A stretch of DNA of 28,771 nucleotides from a virus, in the IMG/VR virus record IMGVR_UViG_3300035070_000425, positions 1-28,771 of that record; one strand, written 5' to 3'. Made by a program: the position numbers and the translations under genes. The notes beneath the pieces were generated by a model. That model saw nothing but the letters and a program-made list of their open reading frames with translations. It did not search any database and had not been told where the DNA came from. Shown in pieces: positions 5,303 to 18,335 of this stretch. Position 1 is the stretch's first letter, and each line of letters opens with the position of its first letter.

Positions 5303-8300
5303 ATGGCGTTATTTGACGTAACTGACCCTAGCGGGAACGTAGTTCGTGTAGAGGCTCCCGCAGATACCTCAGCTAGGGTCCTCAGTGATGCTGTGCTGGA
5401 TCGGTATTACGCCCAGCGACAACGCGAGGCGTTACGCAGCAATAAGAGTGTGGGGATGCCATTCTTTGAGCCTGCTGGTCCTCCCGAAGAAACCACGCTT
5501 GTTGGGAATATTTTTAGGGGGCTAGGGGCTGGCGCTGTTGGTACGCTAGAACAGGCGGCGTTGGGTATAGCTACGGCGCTTAACGAAGAGACAGAACTCG
5601 AAGCGCGCGATGTTATTAAGAGTGTAGCTGATGCTGTAAAACCAGAGTTGGCCAACCCAGAAGAAGTCTCCGCAAAGCTAAGTACAGGTTTAGGGTCTCT
5701 CCTTGGACTAGCTCCCGCACTTCTAGCAGGCCCCGCTGCGCCCCTCGTTGCTGCTGGTATCGGTGGCGCGGCTGGTGCCGGTGAGGCTAGTGAACGTGCT
5801 CGGGCTGACGGCGCGACAGAAGAACAACGTGCCTACGCATCTAGGCTTGGTGTTCTGCCGGGACTCACTGAAGCAGTACCATTTATCCGGTTAGCGCGCG
5901 CTGCGGGGTTTGTGGGTGACGCTGCCCCCGTAGCTGCGGGCGCTATAGCGCGCATAAAAAGAATAGCTGCAACCGGTACATATGAGGGTGTGCAGGAAAT
6001 AGCGCAGAACACCGCTCAGAACCTTATTCAACAAGGGTACAGCCCGGATACCCCCGCGTTTGGTGGTAACTTAGAGGCAGGTCTTCTCGGTGGCGGCGTC
6101 GGTGCCATAGCTCAATCACTAGTCGAACTCGCTATCGGCGGTCGCAGAGGCAGAGGCGGTACAACTCCCGCTGGCCAAACTCCTGTTGACGATGCGCAAG
6201 GAGAGATGTTCCCCGGTGCAGACCTAGGACAGGCACCAACGGGACTAACCCCAGGTCAGCAAGGAGAGATGTTCCCCGGCGCAGACCTCGGTCGTGCCCC
6301 TACGCGCCCTGACGAGCAACAAATGGACTTGTTTGGGGCAAGAGAGACCGAGGAGGCTGTACTTCGGCAGCGGGTTCGCGATGCACAGCTAGAGAAAGAG
6401 CGGGCACTACTTGGTACGTTGGGACGCGAAGACCAAGCGGAACGCCGGTTTATTGGTGAGCCTGATGTAGATGCTTTCGAGGCTGGGCAGGGTATAGCGG
6501 CGCTACGACGTCGTGAGCAGGGCGAACTCCCGTTAAGTTTCCGGCGCAGTGATCGTGATGAGCAGCGAGTTCAGGCCGCTGCCCGAGACCGCGAGGGAGT
6601 TCGAGCCGCTGCACGGGATGATGTGGAGTCGTTTGAGCAGCCTGATTTGTTCGCGCTACAACAGGAGCAAGAACGTCGTAGGCTCGGTCCTGAAGAACTC
6701 CGCCGTCCTGACCAGTTTATGGATACCCGCGAAGAAGCTGAAACTATACCGGTAGATAGCTCCCGACAGTTTGAACTAGAGGACGCCATCGACCTACAAA
6801 CTATGCTGGACGAGGACACTGCTGTCCGCGACGCGCGCGCCCGTGACACAGAAGCCGTTGGTATAGCGTCAGCACTGGAAACAGCGGGTAGGCGTCGGGA
6901 TACTCAACAGCTAGAAGAGACTGCACGGAACCGAGCTGCTGTTCTTGGTGGTGTGCTCGATAACGTAAGTACCGCCAGTAGGACTAATACAGAAAAACGG
7001 TTCTCCCAAGCGCTCGAAGACGCGGGGATCACTAGCACCACCCCCACCCCTGCAGAGCGGGCCACTATCGAACGGGCTACCGACGTATTTGCGGCGACAC
7101 GCCCTACAGCTGAGCCCCCTGTAACCGGCACCCCTACGGCGGAAGGTCCCCGACAGCTAAGCCCCATCGAAGCGCGCATCCCTGAAGACGTACGGCGTGC
7201 GCCTCTTACGCTACCTCCGGTACCTAAAAATGCTAAGCCCCGAGAGCTCGACGCCAAGACACTGGCCGGGTTTAAAATTCCCCCCAGAGCGCCGGTATAC
7301 TCGCGCGTGCTGGACAAAAATTTCAACGACTCGACCGTGCGAGACCAGCTTGTTGAGTACGCGAACACCGTGGGAGCAGAATCTAAAGCGCCTATAGCCG
7401 AGTTCGCTAGGCAGCCCGCCACGGACAAAGCGCGGCAGGTTGCAAAGGAGGCTGATAATAATGACCAGCTGGAACTATTTGGAGACTCCCTCCGTCTTGG
7501 AGACGTTAAGCCTGGAGGAAGTGGAACTGGCGCTGAGGGTGGTCGACCAGGGCCTACTGGAACGCCAGGAGATGATACCGGCGGAACTGCAGGCGCTGTC
7601 GTGCCAGGAGTGGCTACAGCTGCGCGTAATGTTATGGGCGCTGTTAACGGAACAGGAGGAAAGCGCACTCCACTAAAAGGGCAGCAGCAGTTAAACTTCG
7701 ACGCTGCGCCTGAACCCAAGGCTCCGCCTAAACGCAAGGCTTCGCCTAAACGCAAGGCTCCGCCTAAACGTAAGGCTGCGCCGAGGCTCGATGCTACTAA
7801 GACTAAGCGGGCCGGTACCGAAGAAAAACCTACGGGCCGTCCACTATCCGATGCGGAAATTGATGCCTTGGGTGTCACAACTGGGCCTATACGAGCACGG
7901 CTGCGGAGTGGGAATTACACAGTCGGCACCGAGAATGTAAATACCGCGCGTAGCGTTACAGAGATAATCGCCACGGACCCAACCACCCAAAAAGATGTTA
8001 ATGCTGTGGCTAAGCTGTTGGGCACCCCGCCCAAAAAAGGCTCCGACGCTGCTGCGGCGGTCGTATTCTTCGGCAAAAACCCGGACGACCCTAAGATGGG
8101 GCTGGAGGATTTATCGTACGCGCAGGTGTACGCGGACAAGAGATACCGCAAGAGCCCCGGCGATACCCCCGCAGAAACCGCGCGTTTTGAAGGGCAAGGT
8201 ACGATAAACGCCGAGAAAGCACAGAAGTGGGTAGACGCAAACCTATCTGAAAAAGTCCAGAGCTGGCTAAAGACTTCTAGAGAAGACCACAGGCGTACGC

Positions 8301-11300
8301 TGGCGTTTAACAAGGCTAACTACGGTCTGAGCTCTCCCGACGCTGTAAAACAACAAAAGAATAAAGAGGTCGACGAGACGACCGCAGAATACCTTAAACC
8401 ACTACCTACGGACTCCGTCGTGCATCTGGGCACGCCGCTTCACCACGCAGCTAAAGACGCCATCCGTAAGGGGGACTTGGGTAGCGCCCTACGTATACTG
8501 ACTAAGACATCTGGTAGTGATCGTGTAGCCAAGATCGCCGATAAGCTGGGTGCCGTTGTTGGTGACACTAAGGTTGAGGTCGTGAAGAACCTCAAAGGCC
8601 CAGACGGTACTCCGTTGGCTGGGTTGTTCTCGCCTATCACCAACACGATCCAGCTAGACTCTGCTACCGGCATGAATCCTCACACCTTGCTGCATGAAAC
8701 TACTCACGCAGCGGTTTCGGCAACGTTGAGCAAGCCGGGGAACCCCGTAACGAAACAACTCAAGGCGCTGTTTGAAGACGCTAAGCCATCCCTCGAAAAC
8801 TATTATGGCTCTACGTCTGTAGACGAGTTTGTCTCTGAGGTGTTCTCGAACCCTGAGTTTCAAGCGGAGCTTGCCCAGCTAAATCAGTCGGGCAAGCCGG
8901 TCTCCATGCTGCAACGGTTTATGAATATCGTTGGTAACTACGTGCGGCGCTTGATTGGTATGCCCACCAAACCACTTAACTCCGCGCTGAACGCTGCGGA
9001 CATAATGATTGAAAGCATCCTAGCTCCGGCCCCTACCAGCCGCAGTGCTAACGATCTGTTTATGGTATCCAAATTCGGTGACCCTAAGAAGGTTCTAGAC
9101 GGCGCGCTCAATAACATGCCTCGTATGAACAAGGCGGGTGCCAAACGGTTTGTCGACTTTATCTCCGATAGACGTATCCCCATGCGGGCTAGGCAGGCAC
9201 TCCAGTACGCCACCCCGCTGCACGCAGCTGTAGAGGTTGCGGAGAAATATATCCCCCAAGCCCGCGTCCTTAATGATATTGTCCAACGCCAGAGTGGGCA
9301 GCTTAACAAAGGTATTGAGGCCATCGACGGCGTGCTGCGCGGGCTTACGAACTGGCAGAAGGGTAACTCTGAGAAGGCCGACATATTCAACGAACTTGTT
9401 ATGATGTCCACCATGAGTCAGGTCGACCCAGAACTCTCTAGAAGTGCCGCTGAGAAAAAGTACAAAGGCGATCCTGAGCGCATGAGCGACTGGAAAGACG
9501 CTGTGGATATGTACAAGAAGATAGGTGAGGGTGGGCGCACGCAGTACAGAACCTTGCGTAACACCTATAAATCTCTCTTCAAGGATGTCAAGAAAACCCT
9601 CCAGAAACGCCTCAAAGACGAGGTGGGTAGTAAGGAGGGGCAAGCCATATACACCGAGATTAACAAGTCACTGCTGGCGCACGGTGGGCTAGACCCCTAC
9701 TTTCCTCTGTACCGCACCGGTGACTACTGGATATCCTACACCGCCCCCAACCCTAAAACAAAACAGCCAGACTTCTTCCTCGAAGCGTTTGAGAGCTTCT
9801 CGGCGTTTAAGGATGCAAAAGCTAAACTTGTAGCGGATGGCGCGACCAATATAAACGAGTACACCAACAGAGGTGATGTCGATTACAGCAAGGCTCCTCC
9901 TACCAGCTTTGTGAATGACGTCTTAAAAACTCTGAAGGCTCAAGGCATTAACCCAAAGAAGAACGCTACGGACGCCGACACTGCAGCTGACCAGATCATA
10001 CGCTTGTATTTGGACGCCCTGCCAGAACGCTCGATGCTACAAGGATTTAGAAGGCGTAAAAACGAAGGTCGGGGCACCCCCGGCGCTAGAAAAGACGCCG
10101 CACTTGCACTTCGGGCCAAGGGTAAAGGGATCGTACGGCAGTTGGCTCAGATTGAGTATGGTAGAGACATACAAGAATATAGGGACAGTATTAAGAAGTA
10201 CGTAAAAGATCAACGGCAGAAACCTAATGTTACTGTGGAGCAGACGGAGCTCCTAGATACTATAGCTGGTGATCTTGACAGAAGAGCAGCCTTCGCTGCT
10301 AGCCCGAATATATCTAACTACTCGAAAATGGCTAGCTCCATAGGGTTTGGCTTTACATTGGGCCTCAACGTATCTTCGGCGCTTATCAACTTAACTGCTA
10401 TACCTATGATCGTTGTGCCGTACCTTGCTGGAAGGTATCCGGGGGGATACAGGGACATAGCCGGTGTCTTGGGTGACTCCATGAGGATGTTTATGTCCAG
10501 TGGTAGGCAGCGCACGATAGAAACATATGGCCCAGACGGGACGGATAAGGTACGGCAGTCGCAGAACGCTCTGTGGTCGTTAGATAACTACGACTTCGAC
10601 GCTGCCGGTACGTCGCCCGAAATTAAAATGCGTCGTATGTTGGCAGAAGTAGCGCGCGATGCAGGTATGCTCAACCGTTCAATTACCCAAGACGTGCTTA
10701 ATATGGACGGTATGGACACGTCAGCCGGGGCTACCTTCGAGAAGATCAACACCGCCTCTGGGTTCTTCTTCCACCACATGGAACGTATGCAGCGCCAGAT
10801 TACTCTGGATATGGCATACAAGATGGAGCTAGCGAAGCGGACGGGTGTGCCGGTAAAGGAGCTGGGCGCTGCATATAAGTCCGGCAAGATATCCGATGCA
10901 GACATGCGTTCCGCTGCTGAAGACGCGGTGTACGTTACAGAGCTCACTCAAGGTGGTGTGGCCGCTGCCGGTGCTCCGCCTATGACCCAGAACAACGTGG
11001 GTCGTGTAGCACTTATGTTCAAACGCTACGCCGTGTCTATGTACTATATGCTGTGGCAGTTGGCCGAGAAGTCAGTCAAAGGCAGCGCGGCTGATAAGAA
11101 TATGGCGCGTAAACAGCTTGCTGGTGTGTTCGGTGCAACAGGCTTACTTGCTGGTGTAGGCGGTATGCCCATATTTGGTACCCTCGCCATGATCGCTGAT
11201 ATGTTCCTCGACGACGAAGAGGAGGACTTCAGGACCGCGACGCGCCAGTATGTAGGTGAAGGCGTGTATGGTGGTCTTGGTAACTACATATTCGGTATAG

Positions 11301-11950
11301 ATATATCATCCCGTGTGGGGTTATCTGATCTGATCTTCCGCGAAAACCCCATGGCTAAGGACCAGAGCATCTTCTTCTCCGCTCTGGAACAACTGGGTGG
11401 TCCTGTAGTTGGTATCGGCATGAGCGCTGAACGCGGGTTGGATTATATATCGCAGGGTGATGTCACTCGTGGCCTCGAAGCTATGACCCCCGCAGCCATC
11501 CGTAACGTATTCAAAGGTATCCGGTTCGCTACCGAAGGTGCCAAGACACAGCGTGGTGACTCTATCGTCGATGATATCGGCGTAGGGCACTCCCTTGGTC
11601 AGGCGCTTGGTTTTGCCCCCGCCGCTTACTCTCGACAGTTATCGGAGAATATGGCGCGTAAAGGTGTAGATCGCAGTATCGCTGAGAGCCGTCGTGATAT
11701 GCTACGGCGCTATTATATAGCGGTGAGAAACGGAGATAGAAGCGGTATGAAGGACGCTATGGAGCGTATAAACAGACATAACCGTAGGCACCCAACAGCC
11801 GCTATCACTGGTAAAACAATCCGGGCATCCATGCGGAGCCATATGAGAACAACTAGGGATATGGTGAATGGCATCACCCTCAACAGGAACACGCGTGACG
11901 CCATCACGACTGCCATTGCCTTAGATGAGGACGTATCTTTGTTTGATTAA
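5303..11950 (+). CDS. Giant polyvalent protein with HExxH peptidase-like motif and LPD38/PLxRFG-like C-terminus
   Basis: 2215 aa; the start has GAGGG before the ATG. Residues about 70-280 contain Gly/Ala-rich hydrophobic stretches that could be membrane-active. Residues about 290-830 are low complexity, with repeated Q-x-x-[LM]-F motifs (QMDLF 340, QPDLF 446, QLELF 722) and a basic PKRKA repeat (about 807-825). HETTH at 1131-1135 with a following DEFVSE (1174-1179) matches the zinc-metallopeptidase module of phage polyvalent proteins. From about 1670 to the end the sequence resembles the C-terminal region called PLxRFG or LPD38 (ALINLTAIP, VALMFKRYAVSMYYMLWQL, GGMPIFGTL, RGLEAMTPAAIRN). Such proteins are thought to be packaged and injected with DNA to protect or prepare it in the new host (Iyer, Aravind and colleagues). 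Injection here is inference. A 71-aa frame is nested at 7461-7676. Confidence 0.85.
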   Translation: MALFDVTDPSGNVVRVEAPADTSARVLSDAVLDRYYAQRQREALRSNKSVGMPFFEPAGPPEETTLVGNIFRGLGAGAVGTLEQAALGIATALNEETELEARDVIKSVADAVKPELANPEEVSAKLSTGLGSLLGLAPALLAGPAAPLVAAGIGGAAGAGEASERARADGATEEQRAYASRLGVLPGLTEAVPFIRLARAAGFVGDAAPVAAGAIARIKRIAATGTYEGVQEIAQNTAQNLIQQGYSPDTPAFGGNLEAGLLGGGVGAIAQSLVELAIGGRRGRGGTTPAGQTPVDDAQGEMFPGADLGQAPTGLTPGQQGEMFPGADLGRAPTRPDEQQMDLFGARETEEAVLRQRVRDAQLEKERALLGTLGREDQAERRFIGEPDVDAFEAGQGIAALRRREQGELPLSFRRSDRDEQRVQAAARDREGVRAAARDDVESFEQPDLFALQQEQERRRLGPEELRRPDQFMDTREEAETIPVDSSRQFELEDAIDLQTMLDEDTAVRDARARDTEAVGIASALETAGRRRDTQQLEETARNRAAVLGGVLDNVSTASRTNTEKRFSQALEDAGITSTTPTPAERATIERATDVFAATRPTAEPPVTGTPTAEGPRQLSPIEARIPEDVRRAPLTLPPVPKNAKPRELDAKTLAGFKIPPRAPVYSRVLDKNFNDSTVRDQLVEYANTVGAESKAPIAEFARQPATDKARQVAKEADNNDQLELFGDSLRLGDVKPGGSGTGAEGGRPGPTGTPGDDTGGTAGAVVPGVATAARNVMGAVNGTGGKRTPLKGQQQLNFDAAPEPKAPPKRKASPKRKAPPKRKAAPRLDATKTKRAGTEEKPTGRPLSDAEIDALGVTTGPIRARLRSGNYTVGTENVNTARSVTEIIATDPTTQKDVNAVAKLLGTPPKKGSDAAAAVVFFGKNPDDPKMGLEDLSYAQVYADKRYRKSPGDTPAETARFEGQGTINAEKAQKWVDANLSEKVQSWLKTSREDHRRTLAFNKANYGLSSPDAVKQQKNKEVDETTAEYLKPLPTDSVVHLGTPLHHAAKDAIRKGDLGSALRILTKTSGSDRVAKIADKLGAVVGDTKVEVVKNLKGPDGTPLAGLFSPITNTIQLDSATGMNPHTLLHETTHAAVSATLSKPGNPVTKQLKALFEDAKPSLENYYGSTSVDEFVSEVFSNPEFQAELAQLNQSGKPVSMLQRFMNIVGNYVRRLIGMPTKPLNSALNAADIMIESILAPAPTSRSANDLFMVSKFGDPKKVLDGALNNMPRMNKAGAKRFVDFISDRRIPMRARQALQYATPLHAAVEVAEKYIPQARVLNDIVQRQSGQLNKGIEAIDGVLRGLTNWQKGNSEKADIFNELVMMSTMSQVDPELSRSAAEKKYKGDPERMSDWKDAVDMYKKIGEGGRTQYRTLRNTYKSLFKDVKKTLQKRLKDEVGSKEGQAIYTEINKSLLAHGGLDPYFPLYRTGDYWISYTAPNPKTKQPDFFLEAFESFSAFKDAKAKLVADGATNINEYTNRGDVDYSKAPPTSFVNDVLKTLKAQGINPKKNATDADTAADQIIRLYLDALPERSMLQGFRRRKNEGRGTPGARKDAALALRAKGKGIVRQLAQIEYGRDIQEYRDSIKKYVKDQRQKPNVTVEQTELLDTIAGDLDRRAAFAASPNISNYSKMASSIGFGFTLGLNVSSALINLTAIPMIVVPYLAGRYPGGYRDIAGVLGDSMRMFMSSGRQRTIETYGPDGTDKVRQSQNALWSLDNYDFDAAGTSPEIKMRRMLAEVARDAGMLNRSITQDVLNMDGMDTSAGATFEKINTASGFFFHHMERMQRQITLDMAYKMELAKRTGVPVKELGAAYKSGKISDADMRSAAEDAVYVTELTQGGVAAAGAPPMTQNNVGRVALMFKRYAVSMYYMLWQLAEKSVKGSAADKNMARKQLAGVFGATGLLAGVGGMPIFGTLAMIADMFLDDEEEDFRTATRQYVGEGVYGGLGNYIFGIDISSRVGLSDLIFRENPMAKDQSIFFSALEQLGGPVVGIGMSAERGLDYISQGDVTRGLEAMTPAAIRNVFKGIRFATEGAKTQRGDSIVDDIGVGHSLGQALGFAPAAYSRQLSENMARKGVDRSIAESRRDMLRRYYIAVRNGDRSGMKDAMERINRHNRRHPTAAITGKTIRASMRSHMRTTRDMVNGITLNRNTRDAITTAIALDEDVSLFD
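6197..6334 (+). repeat. Imperfect 63-bp coding duplication (QGEMFPGADLG) plus related QMDLF
   Basis: QGEMFPGADLG is encoded at residues 299-309 and again at 320-330, 63 bp apart, with only a few mostly third-position differences. A third, shorter relative, QMDLF, follows at 340-344. The series marks the start of the motif-rich disordered region of the polyvalent protein. Confidence 0.8.
7446..7451 (+). promoter_or_regulatory. Internal Shine-Dalgarno AGGAGG for a nested gene
   Basis: AAAGGAGG occurs inside the polyvalent gene, and AGGAGG ends nine bases before ATG7461, which opens a 71-codon frame in the +1 register. In the polyvalent frame the same bases encode ordinary residues (AKEAD), so the motif is not explained by that protein. 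Confidence 0.6.
7461..7676 (+). CDS. Nested small protein inside the polyvalent gene (+1 frame)
   Basis: 71 aa. It begins MTSWNYLETPSVLETLSLEE and ends LLTEQEESALH. The composition is that of a real folded protein: amphipathic Leu/Glu helices, three Trp, one Cys and little Gly or Pro, unlike typical frame shadows. It has a full AGGAGG site nine bases before the ATG. Over the same bases the host frame encodes a Gly/Pro/Thr-rich, probably disordered segment, as expected where one frame is free to accommodate another. From memory it resembles small phage proteins of the form LxLxELxLAxxxxxxGLLE...W..L...L...E.E.S..H, seen near structural genes of marine phages; I could not verify this. Function is unknown. 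The alternative is a chance open frame. Confidence 0.6.
   Translation: MTSWNYLETPSVLETLSLEEVELALRVVDQGLLERQEMIPAELQALSCQEWLQLRVMLWALLTEQEESALH
7721..7774 (+). repeat. Three tandem 18-bp repeats encoding A-[PS]-P-K-R-K
   Basis: Units at 7721-7738, 7739-7756 and 7757-7774 encode APPKRK, ASPKRK and APPKRK. This gives a short, highly basic and flexible stretch in the polyvalent protein, plausible as a nonspecific DNA-binding tail. Confidence 0.9.
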
Positions 11951-11976
11951 AAAAGCCCCCTGCCGAAGCAGGGGGC
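11949..11976 (-). terminator. Intrinsic terminator at the convergence of the two operons
   Basis: A 9-bp perfect GC-rich stem (11955-11963 with 11968-11976) closes a CGAA loop (TTCG when read on the minus strand). Read leftward it is followed by TTTTTT (11954-11949), a textbook intrinsic terminator for the replication operon. Read rightward no U-tract follows, so it would stop late transcripts less well. Its U-tract overlaps the stop codon of the polyvalent gene. Confidence 0.9.
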
Positions 11977-11996
11977 AATCACACAAGGAGAACAGA

Positions 11997-12022
11997 TAGT
12001 CAGGGAGGAGACCACCTGACTA
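11997..12022. other. 8-bp inverted repeat TAGTCAGG/CCTGACTA
   Basis: Arms 11997-12004 and 12015-12022 are perfect with a 10-base loop. It lies between the terminator and the stop of the 75-aa gene, and is followed on the plus strand by CTATATATC. It may be a weak second, rightward terminator or an mRNA 3'-end stabiliser. Confidence 0.5.
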
Positions 12023-12029
12023 CTATATA

Positions 12030-12257
12030 TCACACCATACGCCAGATGCGAACCCCTAATCTTGTGTATTCTATAACCACCTTCACAACTACCCTGTACC
12101 CCAGTCTCCTAGATATCTTATGAAGCTGAGCGGTGGCGTCCGTCGTGTTTATGCACGGTACAAACATAGAGGTGCCGGGGCCGAATTTATCCCAGTTAAG
12201 GACAATACGTACCCCGTCTGGGTTTAGATCATGTGTCCGTATCACTCCCCACGCCAT
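12030..12257 (-). CDS. Conserved-looking 75-aa protein, last gene of the leftward operon
   Basis: 75 aa, no recognised family. The start ATG12257 has GAGGTG just upstream, and the gene overlaps the 3' end of the primase gene by 29 bp in another frame. The sequence looks like a compact folded domain with SMFVPCINTTDATAQLHKIS and a C-terminal GYRVVVKVVIEYTRLGVRIW strand/helix region. There are no membrane segments and no cysteine cluster. Its last-gene position after the primase suggests a replication accessory or regulator, but nothing in the sequence fixes that. The operon terminator follows about 50 bp downstream. Confidence 0.7.
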   Translation of the reverse strand: MAWGVIRTHDLNPDGVRIVLNWDKFGPGTSMFVPCINTTDATAQLHKISRRLGYRVVVKVVIEYTRLGVRIWRMV

Positions 12258-15051
12258 TCGGCACCTCTATAGAACAGTCCACAACAAGCACCTCGGTGGG
12301 GGGCAGCTGCATGTGCGTGCCCTTGCTTAGGCGCATCTTAGTTTTCTTAGCCCCCATCTCGTCCTTGAGGTCTTGAACTAATGACCCGTAGTTAATCTGG
12401 TGTTCCACACACCACGCTCGGAGGGCTTTAGGTACTAAGTAGGCGCGTTTGATATCAGTCTCATACCGCGCGACTAACTTACCCCGAGGGAGCGCTTCCG
12501 GCACAACTAACGTATCCAGAGCCCCTGCTTCGCCCTTGCGCATATCACTGGTGCTCTTGATCCACAGAACATTGTTCCAGTGCTCGTTTATATAGTCGTT
12601 TAGTATATCCTGCGCGTTCAGCGACATGTCTGCTACTGCGGCTAGGTTCGCCTTCAGCATCCACTCGGCAAACTTAGACACCTTGCTAACGTCATATGAT
12701 AGAAGTCCCAGCCGCCTAGCTAGAATTAGCCCCGCCAATGTATGCGCCACGTGCGCAGACCAGAATCTATTCTCACTGGTGAGGCCCGCCCGCGCATCCA
12801 TACGCTTCTGCACTTCAGCTACGAGATCACGAACGCTCTGTTGGTTCTGCATAACGTATTGCAGGAACTGCACGCCTCCGTGCCCGTAGTTGTTTTCTAG
12901 TGACGCACTGAACCTGTCTTGCTCCTCCTTATCTTTGGATTTGGTGAACAGACGGTCCACCTTCACTTCCATAATGCGCTGCGCTTCCGCTTTCGGCATT
13001 GCCTTGTTAGCCGATAGACGCTCAATAACACTGGCGTTACCCGTAGTTACACAGAGTAAGCTCCACGGCTCACCTTGGAACCGCTCTTTGTTAGCGTTAC
13101 CCGTCAGCCGACCGCGTTGCTTGCCGCTAGTCAGAGCGTAGGCTAGCTCGCTTATCTCCCACGGCTTCAGATTAGTTATTTCGTCTAGGTAATACGGCAG
13201 GCTATGGTAAATCTCGCCGCGATGTAGTTTGTAGTTTAGGGTATCTTTTTTATCTAGCACCAGCGTGTCTGGCTTACCCCATAACGTAGCTCCCGCAAGC
13301 ATGGCCGTGGTCTTGCCAATGCCGGACTCCTTACTGTGTAGATGCAGCGCTGCGCACTTTACCGCAGAAAACTGCATCAGCACTGACCCGAACGCGGTAC
13401 CCACAACGTATTGGTGTAACTCGAACCCGTCACGGTTATAGAAGTCCATATTCCTACGCCACTGCTCGTAGGTACCTCGTGGCATAAAACTCGGCATCAA
13501 CCCGCTGGTGCTGCTAGCGGGAGGATTCAACGCAACCTCGTTCTCAAGTACGACTTGGTTACCTAACACGAAGGCGTCCATGCCATCGCCAATCCAGCCA
13601 AACTGTTTGTTTGCATCATCCGCTTTATTCTTCGATTGTAGTTCGTTCACCCAATCTAACGTGTACTTCATTAGTTCCTCCATCCTTGTAATGGCCACAC
13701 CCTGTGCGGACATATGTTTTCTAAATTCGTCTTTTGATGTTACGGCAGTCAGGGGCAACGTAAATTCCCGAACCCCGTCCTTCGGTAAATGTAGCCGCAT
13801 GAGTAGCGACTCCCCGTCTTCGGGGTCTCTTATGCGTCGTGTGACGTATAAGTCGTTGTGGTATACCGGTACCTCTTCCACCTCCCCGTCGGGCAGCGTC
13901 TTGCGGACGTAGACACCCCCCGCTGCTCCTCGGAAGTACGGGGCCGGGTACGTTGGTATGGTGTATGTCCTAACAGGTACGTTAGGTAAATCTAGGGACG
14001 GGGCTTGAACGACCTCTTCTTCCGTGGCCTCGCGGAACCGCTGCCCTAGAGTTATAGGGGACTTTATCTTCCCCCAGTGCGGACACCCAGTGCATACGCC
14101 CGGTGCGTATTCATCGAACGTAGCACACCGGTACGGCCCCTTGATTCGGTCCATCTTATTGATTGTAGCGATAGCCGAATACTCTGGGTGGTTCCTCGAC
14201 AGAATATCCGCAGCCTTAGCGCCGTCCTCGCAGAACTTGGCTATAGATAGGCCCGCGCGCCATAGCGGTTCTGATACCTCGGCTTGATTCTTGAGCATAT
14301 CGCCCAACTGAGCACAACCGACGCGACGCTGAGTCTTGTCTAGTATATCCTTAAACTTACTCATCTTGTTACCGATAAGCGCGTTAAGGACCGCATTAGC
14401 TTCCGACGGTATGTGTTTTCTAGGAACAGGTATTAGGTCTGCGCCGATAGCGTTGGAGAACGCCTCTAGACTAATTACGGCGGGATATTCCATACCGACA
14501 CAGTGTACGCGTAGGGGTGGGTCAGCCTTATAGTTATGGGTGCCGGGAATACGTAGCACGCGCGCGGCATCGGCTGTTACGGCTGGGTCGGCCAGTAGTT
14601 TGTTGGTAGCGCATACCGCCTTTAGCTTCTCAGCAACTGGTATCCACTCGTCATAGGATACGGACTCATCTAGAAACCAATACCCGTGTATACCTCTACC
14701 AGAGTTTACGAGCAGTGGTTTAGGTAGTCCGGTGTCTTTGCAAAAGAGCTGTAAGGCCTTTATAGCCTCCGGCTGGTTTGGGTAGTCCTTAGTGGGACCG
14801 CAATCTAGGTCCAAGAAAAATGACTGTAGGTGCTTAACATTGTTAACCTTACGCGACCCAGCCTCCTCCAAAGACGCCAATGCAAAATACACGTCGTATC
14901 CGGTGCTATCTAAAGTCTGAGCTGCGTCGAGTAGCGTAGGGATAGTACTGTAGAACTGCTGTACGCGTTTATTTTCAGCGGCTTTTGCGGCGAACAAGCA
15001 GTAATGTCCGGTGTTAGGTAACGTTTTCTCTAGGAACTTTCTTGGTTCCAT
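12229..15051 (-). CDS. AEP primase-polymerase fused to DUF927-like helicase ATPase
   Basis: 940 aa. ATG15051 is preferred over an upstream TTG because GGGAGGT lies directly before it. The N-terminal archaeo-eukaryotic primase (AEP) domain shows FFLDLDCG (acidic pair D81/D83), SGRGIH (117-122) and DAARVLRIPGTHNYK (161-175), the three classical motifs of primase-polymerases. A small Cys patch follows (C309, C320, C323, H326). The C-terminal ATPase has Walker A SGIGKTT (576-582), Walker B YYLDE (620-624) and a sensor-like VTTGN, with the spacing of DUF927/D5-type helicases. The enzyme should unwind the fork and make primers for the phage polymerase. A partial terminator and a dyad in its leader may set its level relative to the upstream genes. 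Domain assignment is from motifs only. Confidence 0.9.
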   Translation of the reverse strand: MEPRKFLEKTLPNTGHYCLFAAKAAENKRVQQFYSTIPTLLDAAQTLDSTGYDVYFALASLEEAGSRKVNNVKHLQSFFLDLDCGPTKDYPNQPEAIKALQLFCKDTGLPKPLLVNSGRGIHGYWFLDESVSYDEWIPVAEKLKAVCATNKLLADPAVTADAARVLRIPGTHNYKADPPLRVHCVGMEYPAVISLEAFSNAIGADLIPVPRKHIPSEANAVLNALIGNKMSKFKDILDKTQRRVGCAQLGDMLKNQAEVSEPLWRAGLSIAKFCEDGAKAADILSRNHPEYSAIATINKMDRIKGPYRCATFDEYAPGVCTGCPHWGKIKSPITLGQRFREATEEEVVQAPSLDLPNVPVRTYTIPTYPAPYFRGAAGGVYVRKTLPDGEVEEVPVYHNDLYVTRRIRDPEDGESLLMRLHLPKDGVREFTLPLTAVTSKDEFRKHMSAQGVAITRMEELMKYTLDWVNELQSKNKADDANKQFGWIGDGMDAFVLGNQVVLENEVALNPPASSTSGLMPSFMPRGTYEQWRRNMDFYNRDGFELHQYVVGTAFGSVLMQFSAVKCAALHLHSKESGIGKTTAMLAGATLWGKPDTLVLDKKDTLNYKLHRGEIYHSLPYYLDEITNLKPWEISELAYALTSGKQRGRLTGNANKERFQGEPWSLLCVTTGNASVIERLSANKAMPKAEAQRIMEVKVDRLFTKSKDKEEQDRFSASLENNYGHGGVQFLQYVMQNQQSVRDLVAEVQKRMDARAGLTSENRFWSAHVAHTLAGLILARRLGLLSYDVSKVSKFAEWMLKANLAAVADMSLNAQDILNDYINEHWNNVLWIKSTSDMRKGEAGALDTLVVPEALPRGKLVARYETDIKRAYLVPKALRAWCVEHQINYGSLVQDLKDEMGAKKTKMRLSKGTHMQLPPTEVLVVDCSIEVPNGVGSDTDT

Positions 15052-15067
15052 CCATACCTCCCAAGTT

Positions 15068-15105
15068 ATCTCACGGCTATCCTCTCCCAAAGACAGCCGT
15101 GAGAT
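15068..15105 (-). promoter_or_regulatory. 11-bp inverted repeat in the primase leader
   Basis: Arms ATCTCACGGCT (15068-15078) and AGCCGTGAGAT (15095-15105) are perfect, with a 16-base loop. On the leftward mRNA the hairpin ends about ten bases before the GGGAGGT ribosome binding site of the primase gene. It has no U-tract, so it is more likely a translational regulator, processing site or operator than a terminator. Confidence 0.6.
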
Positions 15106-15125
15106 TTAGCGCCTTACGGTGACAG

Positions 15126-15164
15126 AAAAGCGCCCGACAAATACTTCGTGCATTATGTCGGGCG
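15126..15164 (-). terminator. Probable partial intrinsic terminator after the ssDNA-binding gene
   Basis: A 9-bp stem CGCCCGACA/TGTCGGGCG (15131-15139 with 15156-15164) with a 16-base loop lies five bases after the stop of the ssDNA-binding-type gene. Read leftward it is followed by CTTTTC. The long loop and short T-run suggest attenuation rather than full termination. Confidence 0.6.
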
Positions 15165-15169
15165 TGTAC

Positions 15170-16093
15170 CTAATCGTCCCAAGCGGCGACTATGGCATCC
15201 AGCTCGGGGTCCGTATCCTCCACGTTTGAAGGTTTCTTTGCAACCCTCTTCGGTTCTTTAGGTTCTTCCTCTTCCTCTTCACCCTCATCCTCGAAGATGG
15301 ATGCCTTCTTAGCTGGTTTGGCTTTCTTAGCCGGTGCCACGGGGGCTACTGGCGCGGCAATAGAGACACCATCTTTTGGTTTGGCTACACTGAACGTGAT
15401 TGCTCGTTGTGTATCTGGGTGCTCCAGTACACCGGCAACTTGTTCTAGTTCAGCCTCCTCCAGTGGACGAGCTGGTTTGAAAAACAGCTTGGGACCTGCG
15501 CTGTCGTCGTCGAAATACATCTCTGTAACGACAGCAATAGGTGGAGTCCTGTTCTCGTTTAGGAACCGTGCGTATGCCTGCATAGGCATCTTACGATCAT
15601 GGACCTCACCGAACACGCTCGTGGCCGGGAGTTGCAGTTGGTACACCTTATCCAGCTGACCCTCGATAACAACCGCGAGCCTTTGTTGGAACCGGCACGC
15701 ACGACTATCGCCTTGTCCTGAGCCCTTTATATTCATGGGGCAGTCCATACACCGAGCGGCCATACGCTGCTCTTCTGGTACGTCAACGGATGGCATGTTA
15801 GTGTCCGCAGACCAACACTGGGGGGCAGAAGGTTTATCGGGTGTATACACCCCCTCGTAGTACATGCGAGAGATGGGGGCAGCGTCGACGATAACGATGT
15901 TCATACTGTTAGACTTACTAACACGCATTTCTTCGCCGCCGACTACTTCGCGGAAACGTTTGCCACGGATACTAATCCGGCGCATACCACCGCCGGAATT
16001 GCCGCCTAGTAGATTGCTACCCGCCCCCTGAAGTTTCTTGAACAGGTCGCTAGATACGAGGGAGTTACCCTCAAACAGTGTTGCTTCAGCCAT
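15170..16093 (-). CDS. Probable single-stranded DNA-binding protein with Cys4 motif and acidic tail
   Basis: 307 aa. ATG16093 is chosen because it has GGAG seven bases upstream and an 8-nt ATG...TGA overlap with the HTH gene; the longer frame adds a Lys/Ser/Thr tail encoded by the HTH gene's repeats. Residues 68-83 (VIVDAAPISRMYYEGV) begin a beta-rich core. Four cysteines (C93, C115, C118, C133) form C-x21-C-x2-C-x14-C inside the core, reminiscent of the zinc site in T4 gp32. The C-terminus is a Lys/Ala linker, an acidic run and a terminal AAWDD, like the acidic tails of SSB and T7 gp2.5. It lies between replication genes where other phages place their DUF2815 ssDNA-binding protein. The assignment is inference from architecture and context. 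Confidence 0.7.
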   Translation of the reverse strand: MAEATLFEGNSLVSSDLFKKLQGAGSNLLGGNSGGGMRRISIRGKRFREVVGGEEMRVSKSNSMNIVIVDAAPISRMYYEGVYTPDKPSAPQCWSADTNMPSVDVPEEQRMAARCMDCPMNIKGSGQGDSRACRFQQRLAVVIEGQLDKVYQLQLPATSVFGEVHDRKMPMQAYARFLNENRTPPIAVVTEMYFDDDSAGPKLFFKPARPLEEAELEQVAGVLEHPDTQRAITFSVAKPKDGVSIAAPVAPVAPAKKAKPAKKASIFEDEGEEEEEEPKEPKRVAKKPSNVEDTDPELDAIVAAWDD

Positions 16094-16352
16094 TTTCGTT
16101 CTCCGTGTTGTTTTCTTCTGTGGTGTCTTCTTCGTGCTCTTCGTGCTCTTCGTGCTCTTCATGGCGCAGAAGTGCGGTAACGACTGCGGCCATATTAAAC
16201 CGGTAGGTGTTACCTACCCGAATGTATGTAGTTGGCGGGATGTGCCCCCTACGTACCCACCCCCGCACCGTAGCCAGAGAGATGTGTAGTTTGCGCGCTA
16301 CCTCATCAATTGGCACGTACTCGATGTCCAGATCGTCGGTAGATGGTTCCAT
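16086..16352 (-). CDS. Excisionase/MerR-like helix-turn-helix protein with HEE repeat tail
   Basis: 88 aa. Residues about 12-60 (YVPIDEVARKLHISLATVRG, then WVRRGHIPPTTYIRVGNTYR) are a typical winged HTH of the excisionase/HTH_17 type, which binds DNA as a small regulator or architectural factor. The tail is HEEHEEHEEHEE followed by an acidic Asn/Glu stretch, encoded by 9-bp repeats. The start has AAGGAGAAA before the ATG and overlaps the upstream stop (TAATG). It could be a recombination directionality factor or an operon regulator. No integrase is visible in the window, so an excisionase role is not supported beyond the fold. Confidence 0.8.
   Translation of the reverse strand: MEPSTDDLDIEYVPIDEVARKLHISLATVRGWVRRGHIPPTTYIRVGNTYRFNMAAVVTALLRHEEHEEHEEHEEDTTEENNTENENG
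16131..16157. repeat. Three perfect 9-bp tandem repeats (TTCGTGCTC)
   Basis: The repeats encode HEE units in the HTH protein; a fourth HEE is encoded by degenerate flanking copies. In another frame the same bases encode KSTKSTKST, which creates a false N-terminal extension of the next gene. Slippage could change the copy number without shifting the frame. Confidence 0.9.
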
Positions 16353-16747
16353 TATTTTCTCCTTATTGAGATTGTGTATTCAGATTCGACGTTTAACCCT
16401 GGTGGTAGTATGTCTGGGTTCTCTGCCAGAAACTCCTTCACCGCAGTTTGATTAAGACGTTTCTCTAGGAACTCGGGTACCCCGTGCGACACTACAAAGC
16501 TGTGCATGGAGCCCCAATCGCTAGTCCAATACCGCTTCTTCTGTGTGCGGTAGAACACCCCAGCGTCAGTTCGTACGCTATCAATGTCGTTGTCTTTGCA
16601 GAACTGCAGGAGAGACATCTTGATCTTATCCTGTTGCCCCTTGAGCCCATCGTCCTGTGTCTTGAATGTGGTCGCCAGCTCCTGGCGCTGAGCGCGTATG
16701 TTTATATATGCCTTGGTCAACTTACCAAGGCGCGACCTCTCTTCCAT
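16352..16747 (-). CDS. Small replication-module protein, coiled-coil N-terminus (function unknown)
   Basis: 131 aa. The first 50 residues are charged and probably coiled-coil (RSRLGKLTKAYINIRAQRQE). The C-terminal part has a compact domain with YRTQKKRYWTSDWGSMHSFV, LEKRLNQTAVKEFL and PPGLNVESEYTISIRRK. From memory this C-terminal pattern recurs in uncharacterised phage proteins located between helicase and ssDNA-binding genes; it also recalls Gam-like host-nuclease inhibitors by layout, but I see no decisive motif. The stop overlaps the next start (TAATG). A possible leftward promoter lies just upstream (16779-16807). Confidence 0.75.
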   Translation of the reverse strand: MEERSRLGKLTKAYINIRAQRQELATTFKTQDDGLKGQQDKIKMSLLQFCKDNDIDSVRTDAGVFYRTQKKRYWTSDWGSMHSFVVSHGVPEFLEKRLNQTAVKEFLAENPDILPPGLNVESEYTISIRRK

Positions 16748-16778
16748 CGTGCCTACCCTGTTTTATTGCGATTGGCTA

Positions 16779-16807
16779 ACTTTAGTGTAGTAAGACACCC
16801 TAGTCAA
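16779..16807 (-). promoter_or_regulatory. Candidate sigma70-type promoter reading left
   Basis: On the minus strand TTGACT (16807-16802) is separated by 17 bases from TAAAGT (16784-16779). It sits in the 52-bp gap after the SNF2 helicase gene, and its -35 overlaps the last helicase codons. It would drive the 131-aa, HTH, ssDNA-binding and primase genes. The -10 is weak (4 of 6). Confidence 0.4.
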
Positions 16808-18335
16808 GCAATTCGTTATATAAATCTATAATTTTTGTGTGTACATCAATTCTCGCATCCAATAGTTTATATACGTGCTGCTCCGCCGGGGAGCCATAAA
16901 GCTGCACCACCGTGCATTTGTTGACTTGTCCCGCCCGGTGTACACGTGCGTTGGCCTGCGAGTATACCTCCAGGGAGCTGGTCGGAGCCCACCAAACAAC
17001 GGTATCGGCGGCGGTTAGCGTTACGCCGTGCGCTGCGGCGGCGGGTTGTATAACTAGGACGCGGGGGTCTTGCTGAGTTTGGAAACGCCTGAACGCATCA
17101 GTACGTTTCGCAGCGGTCACACTACCCTGAATGATCTCGTTGGTTATTCCATCGGCGGATAGTTTCTCAGAGAGTAGGGATATAGCGTGCCGAAAAGGTA
17201 CAAACACAAGTACCTTGCCCCTAGCTTCTTGGACGGACTCCATAAGCACGTTATATCGGTTCTTTATGTCGAACTCTAACGCATCCCCTTCGTCCGTATA
17301 CACAGCTCCCGCAGATATCTGCAGGAGCTTATTCATGTTAACAGCCGCGTTTACGGCGGTAACTTCTTCTCCTGCGGCCTGCATCACCATCCTAGTCTTG
17401 AGCTCTTTGTAATACTTCTTTTGTTGGGGGGTGAGTTCCACCTTCCGTTTGGTGTAAACCATCTCCGGTAGGTCCAGGCACTCTTCCTTGGTGAACCGTA
17501 TAGCGGGGCGGAGGGCATTGAACACGATGTCGGTGGCGGTATCTTTTACCGCCCACTTGAACCTAGTCACTTTGTACATAACTTGGTCGCGGAACGAGCC
17601 GAAGAATTTCGGCACCGCTGTAGCGTTGACGAGTTTAGCTAGGCCGTAGGCGTCAAGAGGACTCTGGGCTGCGGGGGTTCCCGTCATCATCCACAACCAC
17701 GTATCTTTACCCAGTAGTTTATTCAACGCTTTCCAACGTTTGGTCTGTGCGTTCTTATAGTGTGTAGCCTCATCTACAATAACTAAGTCGAAGCCTGCGG
17801 CAGCAATATCGTCAGATACGATATCCACACCGTCATAGTTTATAATGACGTACTGAGCGCCACCGTTGATTACCTTTTGTCGTTTGTTCTTTGCCCCGTA
17901 GGCGACATCCACCGTACGGTGCATAGCAAACGTAAATAGGTCAGCACGCCACGCCGAGTCCATAATGGACAGCGGGCATATGACAAGCACGCGGTTGATG
18001 ACGCCTTGTGACAAGAGAAAATCAGAAGCCCATATCGCGCTGGCGGTTTTACCGGTGCCCTGTTCGTTGAAACAAAAAGCCTTCCGATGCTTAGTTAAGA
18101 ACTCAGCCGTAGTCTTCTGGTGCTCGAAGGGTTTGTACGTTCCTGACCACTGGTATTGTCCCTTGATAGGTGACGGAACGTCTATGTTCAGGCTCTTTAA
18201 TGTGAGGGTCTCCTCTACCCCCCACTTCACAAGCACCTCGTTAGCGCCTACAGCCTTGCTGTTAGGCACCACACTTGTAACTTTGTTTGGGTGTCTAAGG
18301 TTTAGTAGTAGCGCCTTGTTGTTGACGACCTGCAT
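16800..18335 (-). CDS. SNF2-family DNA helicase/translocase
   Basis: 511 aa, close to the usual length of phage SNF2 helicases. Visible motifs in order: Q-like EHQK (71-74), Walker A NEQGTGKTAS (90-99), Ia VLVICPLSIMDSAW, DEAH-type box VDEATHYKN (187-195), III MMTGTPAAQSP (217-227), then helicase domain 2 with VLVFVPFRHAISLLSEKL and motif VI SQANARVHRAGQ. It should translocate on duplex DNA using ATP, in phage replication or recombination. CCAAGGAGAACTACA precedes the ATG. SNF2 genes lie next to VRR-NUC, PolA and Cas4-like genes in many siphophage replication modules, as here. All key ATPase residues are present. Confidence 0.93.
   Translation of the reverse strand: MQVVNNKALLLNLRHPNKVTSVVPNSKAVGANEVLVKWGVEETLTLKSLNIDVPSPIKGQYQWSGTYKPFEHQKTTAEFLTKHRKAFCFNEQGTGKTASAIWASDFLLSQGVINRVLVICPLSIMDSAWRADLFTFAMHRTVDVAYGAKNKRQKVINGGAQYVIINYDGVDIVSDDIAAAGFDLVIVDEATHYKNAQTKRWKALNKLLGKDTWLWMMTGTPAAQSPLDAYGLAKLVNATAVPKFFGSFRDQVMYKVTRFKWAVKDTATDIVFNALRPAIRFTKEECLDLPEMVYTKRKVELTPQQKKYYKELKTRMVMQAAGEEVTAVNAAVNMNKLLQISAGAVYTDEGDALEFDIKNRYNVLMESVQEARGKVLVFVPFRHAISLLSEKLSADGITNEIIQGSVTAAKRTDAFRRFQTQQDPRVLVIQPAAAAHGVTLTAADTVVWWAPTSSLEVYSQANARVHRAGQVNKCTVVQLYGSPAEQHVYKLLDARIDVHTKIIDLYNELLD

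Follow-up and report, generated by a model that had tools for sequence, protein, structure and literature searches.

A conserved small gene nested out of frame within a giant polyvalent-protein gene of uncultured phages

Genes nested out of frame within other genes have been described before, and several of these cases share features with the locus analyzed here. In lambda and its relatives, Rz1 is a complete small +1-frame gene with its own start signals inside a larger late phage gene, Rz, and in phiX174 and similar small phages, overprinted genes such as E in D combine an out-of-frame position with internal initiation. In these small phages, space in the genome is scarce and selection constrains the outer protein. 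A cellular parallel is comS in srfA of Bacillus subtilis, a short functional gene for a regulatory peptide in another frame of a giant multidomain gene, to which no sequence relation is claimed. The gene described here differs from Rz1, whose product is a short lysis-cassette lipoprotein, in that its product is predicted to be soluble, without a membrane segment, and is encoded within a polyvalent/virion-type gene of about 2200 codons. It differs from E in D in that the outer frame is neutral over the overlap whereas the nested gene is constrained. The outer gene itself belongs to the same class as P1 DarB/DdrB and the N4 virion RNA polymerase (LPD39, DarB-like, HExxH motif). In the literature on overlapping genes with polyvalent proteins, on PLxRFG and on nested phage genes, we did not find this gene described, nor the family to which it belongs, its giant polyvalent setting or a neutral outer frame of this sort; in the part of the paper on polyvalent proteins covered here (PMC5512222), the word ‘overlap’ is absent and no nested gene is described.

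The window, that is, the whole 28,771-nt stretch analyzed (IMG/VR record IMGVR_UViG_3300035070_000425, positions 1 to 28,771), contains the following features of interest:

5303–11950, plus strand: large PLxRFG/DarB-like polyvalent gene, 2215 aa, with the nested gene inside it, in the +1 register
7444–7451, plus strand: Shine-Dalgarno sequence AAAGGAGG of the nested gene, 9 nt upstream of the ATG at 7461
7460–7679, plus strand: the overlap as read in the large frame, a Gly/Pro/Thr-rich linker, neutral at the protein level
7461–7676, plus strand: nested overprinted gene, 71 aa (MTSWNYLETPSVLETLSLEEVELALRVVDQGLLERQEMIPAELQALSCQEWLQLRVMLWALLTEQEESALH), recognized from the ORF, its homologues and selection analysis
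8693–8710, plus strand: HExxHA motif (zincin-like metallopeptidase) of the large protein, 3’ of the linker, a motif match only
9206–9622, plus strand: LPD39 domain of the large protein (Pfam PF18858, E 3.9e-10)
9692–11887, plus strand: DarB-like/PLxRFG C-terminal region of the large protein (phrog_10089, E 3.5e-58)

The product of 5303–11950 is a giant multidomain phage protein with LPD and DarB-like domains, and thus of the polyvalent class; its relatives carry the annotations PLxRFG protein or DarB-like antirestriction protein. The nested ORF runs from ATG 7461–7463 through 71 codons to TAA 7674–7676, with an offset of (7461–5303) mod 3 = 1 relative to the large ORF, and is therefore a complete start-to-stop ORF in another frame on the same strand, as expected of an overprinted gene. 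The first-pass annotation of this DNA had pointed to AAAGGAGG, followed nine bases later by an ATG and a 71-codon +1 frame in a 2215-codon gene, and the sequence and ORF listing bear it out in every particular. It was also correct in contrasting a small helical product rich in Trp, Leu and Glu with the Gly/Pro/Thr-rich stretch of the large frame, a compositional asymmetry that arises because the nested frame is the constrained one. The RGLG/GGLGG recurrence of the large frame consists of EDWE codons read with a one-base shift, and the L that recurs where the large-frame overlap ends is the product of the CAY-TAA/TAG end of the nested gene.

Taken by itself, the window gives an ORF signal that is above chance but modest. 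When the large gene was shuffled among synonymous codons, the +1 frame stayed open across the overlap in 10 of 500 shuffles, and an out-of-frame ATG ORF of at least 66 aa with a Shine-Dalgarno match of at least 6 nt arose in 6 of 300. An open frame produced by chance from the composition of this G+C-rich, low-complexity linker would draw some support from the fact that long out-of-frame ORFs are common in the large gene if the Shine-Dalgarno sequence is ignored (mean of 1.15 out-of-frame ATG ORFs of at least 66 aa per shuffle). However, the status of the gene is settled by the comparative evidence across relatives: the protein is conserved in dozens of divergent lineages together with its Shine-Dalgarno sequence and stop, and selection is reversed between the two frames.

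A search of viral contigs for the 71-aa product yielded one contig, the nearest relative, with an 86% identical copy inside the same large gene. A two-sequence profile then matched the L007/L008 copy (E 4.6e-5), in which the large protein is only 32% identical. To collect relatives, we took the DarB-like/PLxRFG C-terminus of the large protein as bait, and scanned these in six frames with the nested-protein profile. The next profile matched 37 loci, all in the +1 frame, and the matches grew from 37 to 76 to 122. Each of the 122 matches, which represent 79 distinct C-termini from IMG/VR contigs, is in the +1 frame relative to a large ORF of 1043–2468 aa, and none stands alone. Collecting loci through the large gene biases the sample toward nested copies, and to counter this we ran three scans for sequence motifs of the small protein, which reach moderately close relatives only and cover contigs that are metagenomic fragments; every copy retrieved in this way was nested in the same large-gene family and in the same frame. 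The nested ORF keeps its frame in relatives in which the C-terminus of the large protein is only ~32–37% identical, and its amino acid conservation extends to members at 25–40% identity, with the consensus LxxLxxxxxExALxVVDxAW...PxxLxHLxxxDWExxxxxLxxLxxxxxxSxxH-stop and a conserved stop. The protein/HMM search that the annotation had proposed thus supports its claim that the 71-aa frame is a real gene, as nested homologues are present and the frame is open in them. Very probably, then, 7461–7676 is a genuine, fully nested +1-frame gene of a conserved family with an independent Shine-Dalgarno/ATG start; at the level of sequence, the comparison demonstrates its coding status, frame, start signals and restriction to one large-gene family. 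Because gene callers normally discard same-strand ORFs within longer genes, no protein family in the databases searched corresponds to this nested family, which has ~80 distinct members.

In nearly all members, a Shine-Dalgarno-like site stands at suitable spacing before the start codon, just upstream of the conserved core, so that, as a sequence signal, the nested gene has a translation start of its own. GGAGG, AGGAGG, AAGGAGG and AGGAGGT are the frequent forms, and the nested gene of L003 carries AAGGAGG, as in the window; a minority of members have a weak site (3–4 nt) or a GTG/TTG start. As a background, only 3.5% of the other +1-frame ATGs in the same large genes have a Shine-Dalgarno match of at least 5 nt. 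In two members (L038 and L089), the ATG immediately follows an in-frame stop, so the frame can be entered only there and cannot be fed by a frameshift upstream.

These starts bear on the alternative that what is constrained is an RNA or DNA element or else a frameshift product, rather than an independently started protein. Synonymous constraint alone does not separate such an element from a protein, which leaves this reading some ground. An element of this kind is nevertheless at odds with the codon periodicity of the nested frame (124/80/238 differences at codon positions 1/2/3) and with conservation reaching members only 25–40% identical, and a frameshift product with the recurrence of the Shine-Dalgarno sequence and start and with the arrangement in L038 and L089; we consider it highly improbable.

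The periodicity comes from 14 independent close pairs, in which sites were counted by their effect in both frames, the substitution analysis that the annotation had called for. In these pairs, the nested frame has dNN/dSN = 0.27 (95% CI 0.215–0.322), whereas the large frame has dNN/dNS = 1.13 (CI 0.88–1.42). In the large frame, pS drops to 0.076 in the overlap, against 0.407 in the 150-codon flanks and 0.467 elsewhere, which amounts to strong synonymous constraint, and pN/pS rises to 2.0, against 0.32 in the flanks and 0.24 elsewhere. Together, these ratios and the pS/pN pattern show that the nested gene is under purifying selection and that the large frame evolves nearly neutrally over the overlap; purifying selection in the nested frame greater than the large frame can account for is the pattern expected of an overprinted gene. 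Two earlier suggestions, that the small gene is the constrained partner and that the large protein merely reads through it, are thereby upheld. Three observations had been named as fatal to the gene, namely, no homologue in any phage, a frame broken in relatives and a lack of synonymous constraint in the large frame, and the opposite was found in each case. The reversed selection in the two frames, along with 122 of 122 profile matches being nested, refutes the chance-frame explanation, to which we assign a practically negligible probability.

How the arrangement arose is a separate matter. The annotation had pointed to similar small proteins encoded separately in marine phages, which would make the gene captured rather than born by overprinting: a stand-alone small phage gene would have entered the giant gene, whose frame was opened through it afterwards. 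In favor of capture, the constrained partner is the small gene and not the large frame, the nested gene lies in a variable linker, and in the window codon usage is closer to that of the large gene in the nested frame (0.00) than in the large frame (−0.27). However, the codon usage score is higher for the nested frame in just 23 of 37 members, which clearly favors neither frame as the older, no stand-alone homologue appeared at any sensitivity tried in the databases and phages scanned, and all copies retrieved through small-protein motifs are nested in the same large-gene family and frame. Searching 50,697 phage records by tblastn with four members (P0001, L007, L066 and L022) and the family consensus returned nothing, or matches with E >= 2 only; a GTDB genome scan found no homologue, nor did a profile scan of the records of P-SSP7, HTVC010P, HTVC019P, HMO-2011 and RHph_TM3_14A. 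Scans of PHROGs, Pfam, NCBIfam and PADLOC returned nothing beyond sporadic weak matches by one or two members. Those to phrog_37486 (0.0013), phrog_20406 (0.0039) and others each involve a single member of 29–47 and are for this reason taken as chance. The sensitivity of these searches is bounded by BLAST masking of low-complexity sequence and by the scanning of PHROGs with single members, so that very remote relatives may escape. Because no stand-alone homologue was found, the capture idea is unsupported and appears improbable, and the gene probably arose by overprinting within the linker of a large ancestral gene.

The large protein can be aligned in its N- and C-terminal parts, which flank the overlap; the stretch between them gives no blastp similarity in most of the distant pairs, whether the gene is present or absent. 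In a tree of the C-terminal region, a clade of 65 uncultured sequences has the nested gene in both of the branches that part at its base, and the presence and absence of the gene require 7 changes, compared to a mean of 21.0 for shuffled labels. The simplest reading of this tree is one early gain at the root of the uncultured clade followed by several losses. In 16 uncultured relatives that span the region, we detected no copy, either nested or at any other place in the record, so some lineages can do without the gene; genomes that lack the nested copy carry no alternative nested ORF of the family. Among cultured PLxRFG phages, outgroups to this clade, no nested homologue was found in the stretches examined of SopranoGao, Parlo, douglas 12A4, Itty13 and 1F273_PE002, or of Atu_ph08, Mel-JY34, Mwe-JY07, VS-ABTNL-3 and F116. 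One further locus (L023:1591–1821) has a nested copy seemingly without the N-terminal ~28 codons, about half of the gene, within an intact large frame.

The nested product is 63–91 aa long and acidic on average (median pI 4.9, range 4.05–9.03). AlphaFold2 (AF2) models of two members, built with 47 sequences, give helices at 12–15, 18–30, 32–35 and 48–68 for the window protein (pLDDT 80) and at 8–23 and 43–63 for the L022 member (pLDDT 81), and no membrane segment was found in 47 members, with a maximum 19-residue hydropathy of 0.97. Overall, a soluble protein of two helices, acidic in most members, is predicted. Comparison of its fold with PDB and BFVD gave no significant match, which does not establish a new fold, and a sequence profile search of PDB gave at best E 0.61.

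We infer from its sequence signals that the nested protein is translated in vivo. Ribosomes would start the nested gene independently at its own Shine-Dalgarno/ATG within the late transcript of the giant gene, so the small and giant proteins would be made at the same time and place. The disordered linker of the giant protein can accommodate almost any sequence, leaving the small gene to set the selection in the overlap. Phage polyvalent proteins are often packaged in virions, as reported for P1 DarB and the N4 virion RNA polymerase (PMC5512222). From this nature of the large protein, the presumed late structural operon and synthesis in cis, we tentatively suggest, as the likeliest role, that the small protein might work late as a partner of the virion or the giant protein, aiding assembly, packaging or solubility. 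Equally tentative is a broader proposal, that this is a cryptic gene throughout the clade, always inside the disordered linker and never separate, whose late product is made in cis and might act on the giant protein as an assembly chaperone, a packaging adaptor or an inhibitor of the peptidase-like domain; if so, the linker would persist mainly as the carrier of the hidden gene.

A rival view is that the product is a lysis, anti-defense or inhibitor protein functionally unrelated to the giant protein. Among the nested phage genes known so far, many function in lysis, such as Rz1 in Rz and E in D, but a lysis role is disfavored here because the product has no membrane segment (maximum 19-residue hydropathy 0.97) and so lacks the transmembrane segment of the spanin/holin type. 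The average acidity of the family also speaks for this view, yet a pI range of 4.05–9.03 means that charge is not conserved as it is in DNA mimics, and PADLOC gave no match of weight. We regard a function unrelated to the giant protein as less likely than not, with an anti-defense or inhibitor role plausible, and keep the partner role as our working suggestion.

Whatever its role, the family provides a clear tailed-phage case of an overlap in which selection acts on the small hidden gene and not on the large annotated one. It offers a testable model, in which giant proteins with disordered linkers may carry second genes, and a warning that, in a giant phage protein, a Gly/Pro/Thr-rich linker may be the shadow cast by a gene hidden in it.

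Several minor features of these loci deserve mention. Compared with L003, the window is 91% identical over 7347–7737 and 96% over 8365–18076, whereas 7738–8364 does not align, marking a sharp mosaic break close 3’ of the nested gene. In some of the large genes, synonymous divergence also dips locally away from the nested gene (L098/L102, aa 1299–1348; L049/L052, 872–916; L022/L028, 1520–1559); these dips share no one common place and perhaps reflect recombination or further constraint. Upstream of the nested gene, residues 361–417 of the L038 large protein weakly match the FtsK gamma domain (E 5.7e-6, under the Pfam cut-off). At the start of the overlap, the large frame of the window encodes QLELF (7466–7480), which resembles beta-clamp-binding motifs; QLxLF-like peptides (QLELF, QLTLF, QLDLF, LNVF) occur at the same place in L073, L086, L132 and L064, and QQQLNF lies just past the overlap in the large protein of the window.
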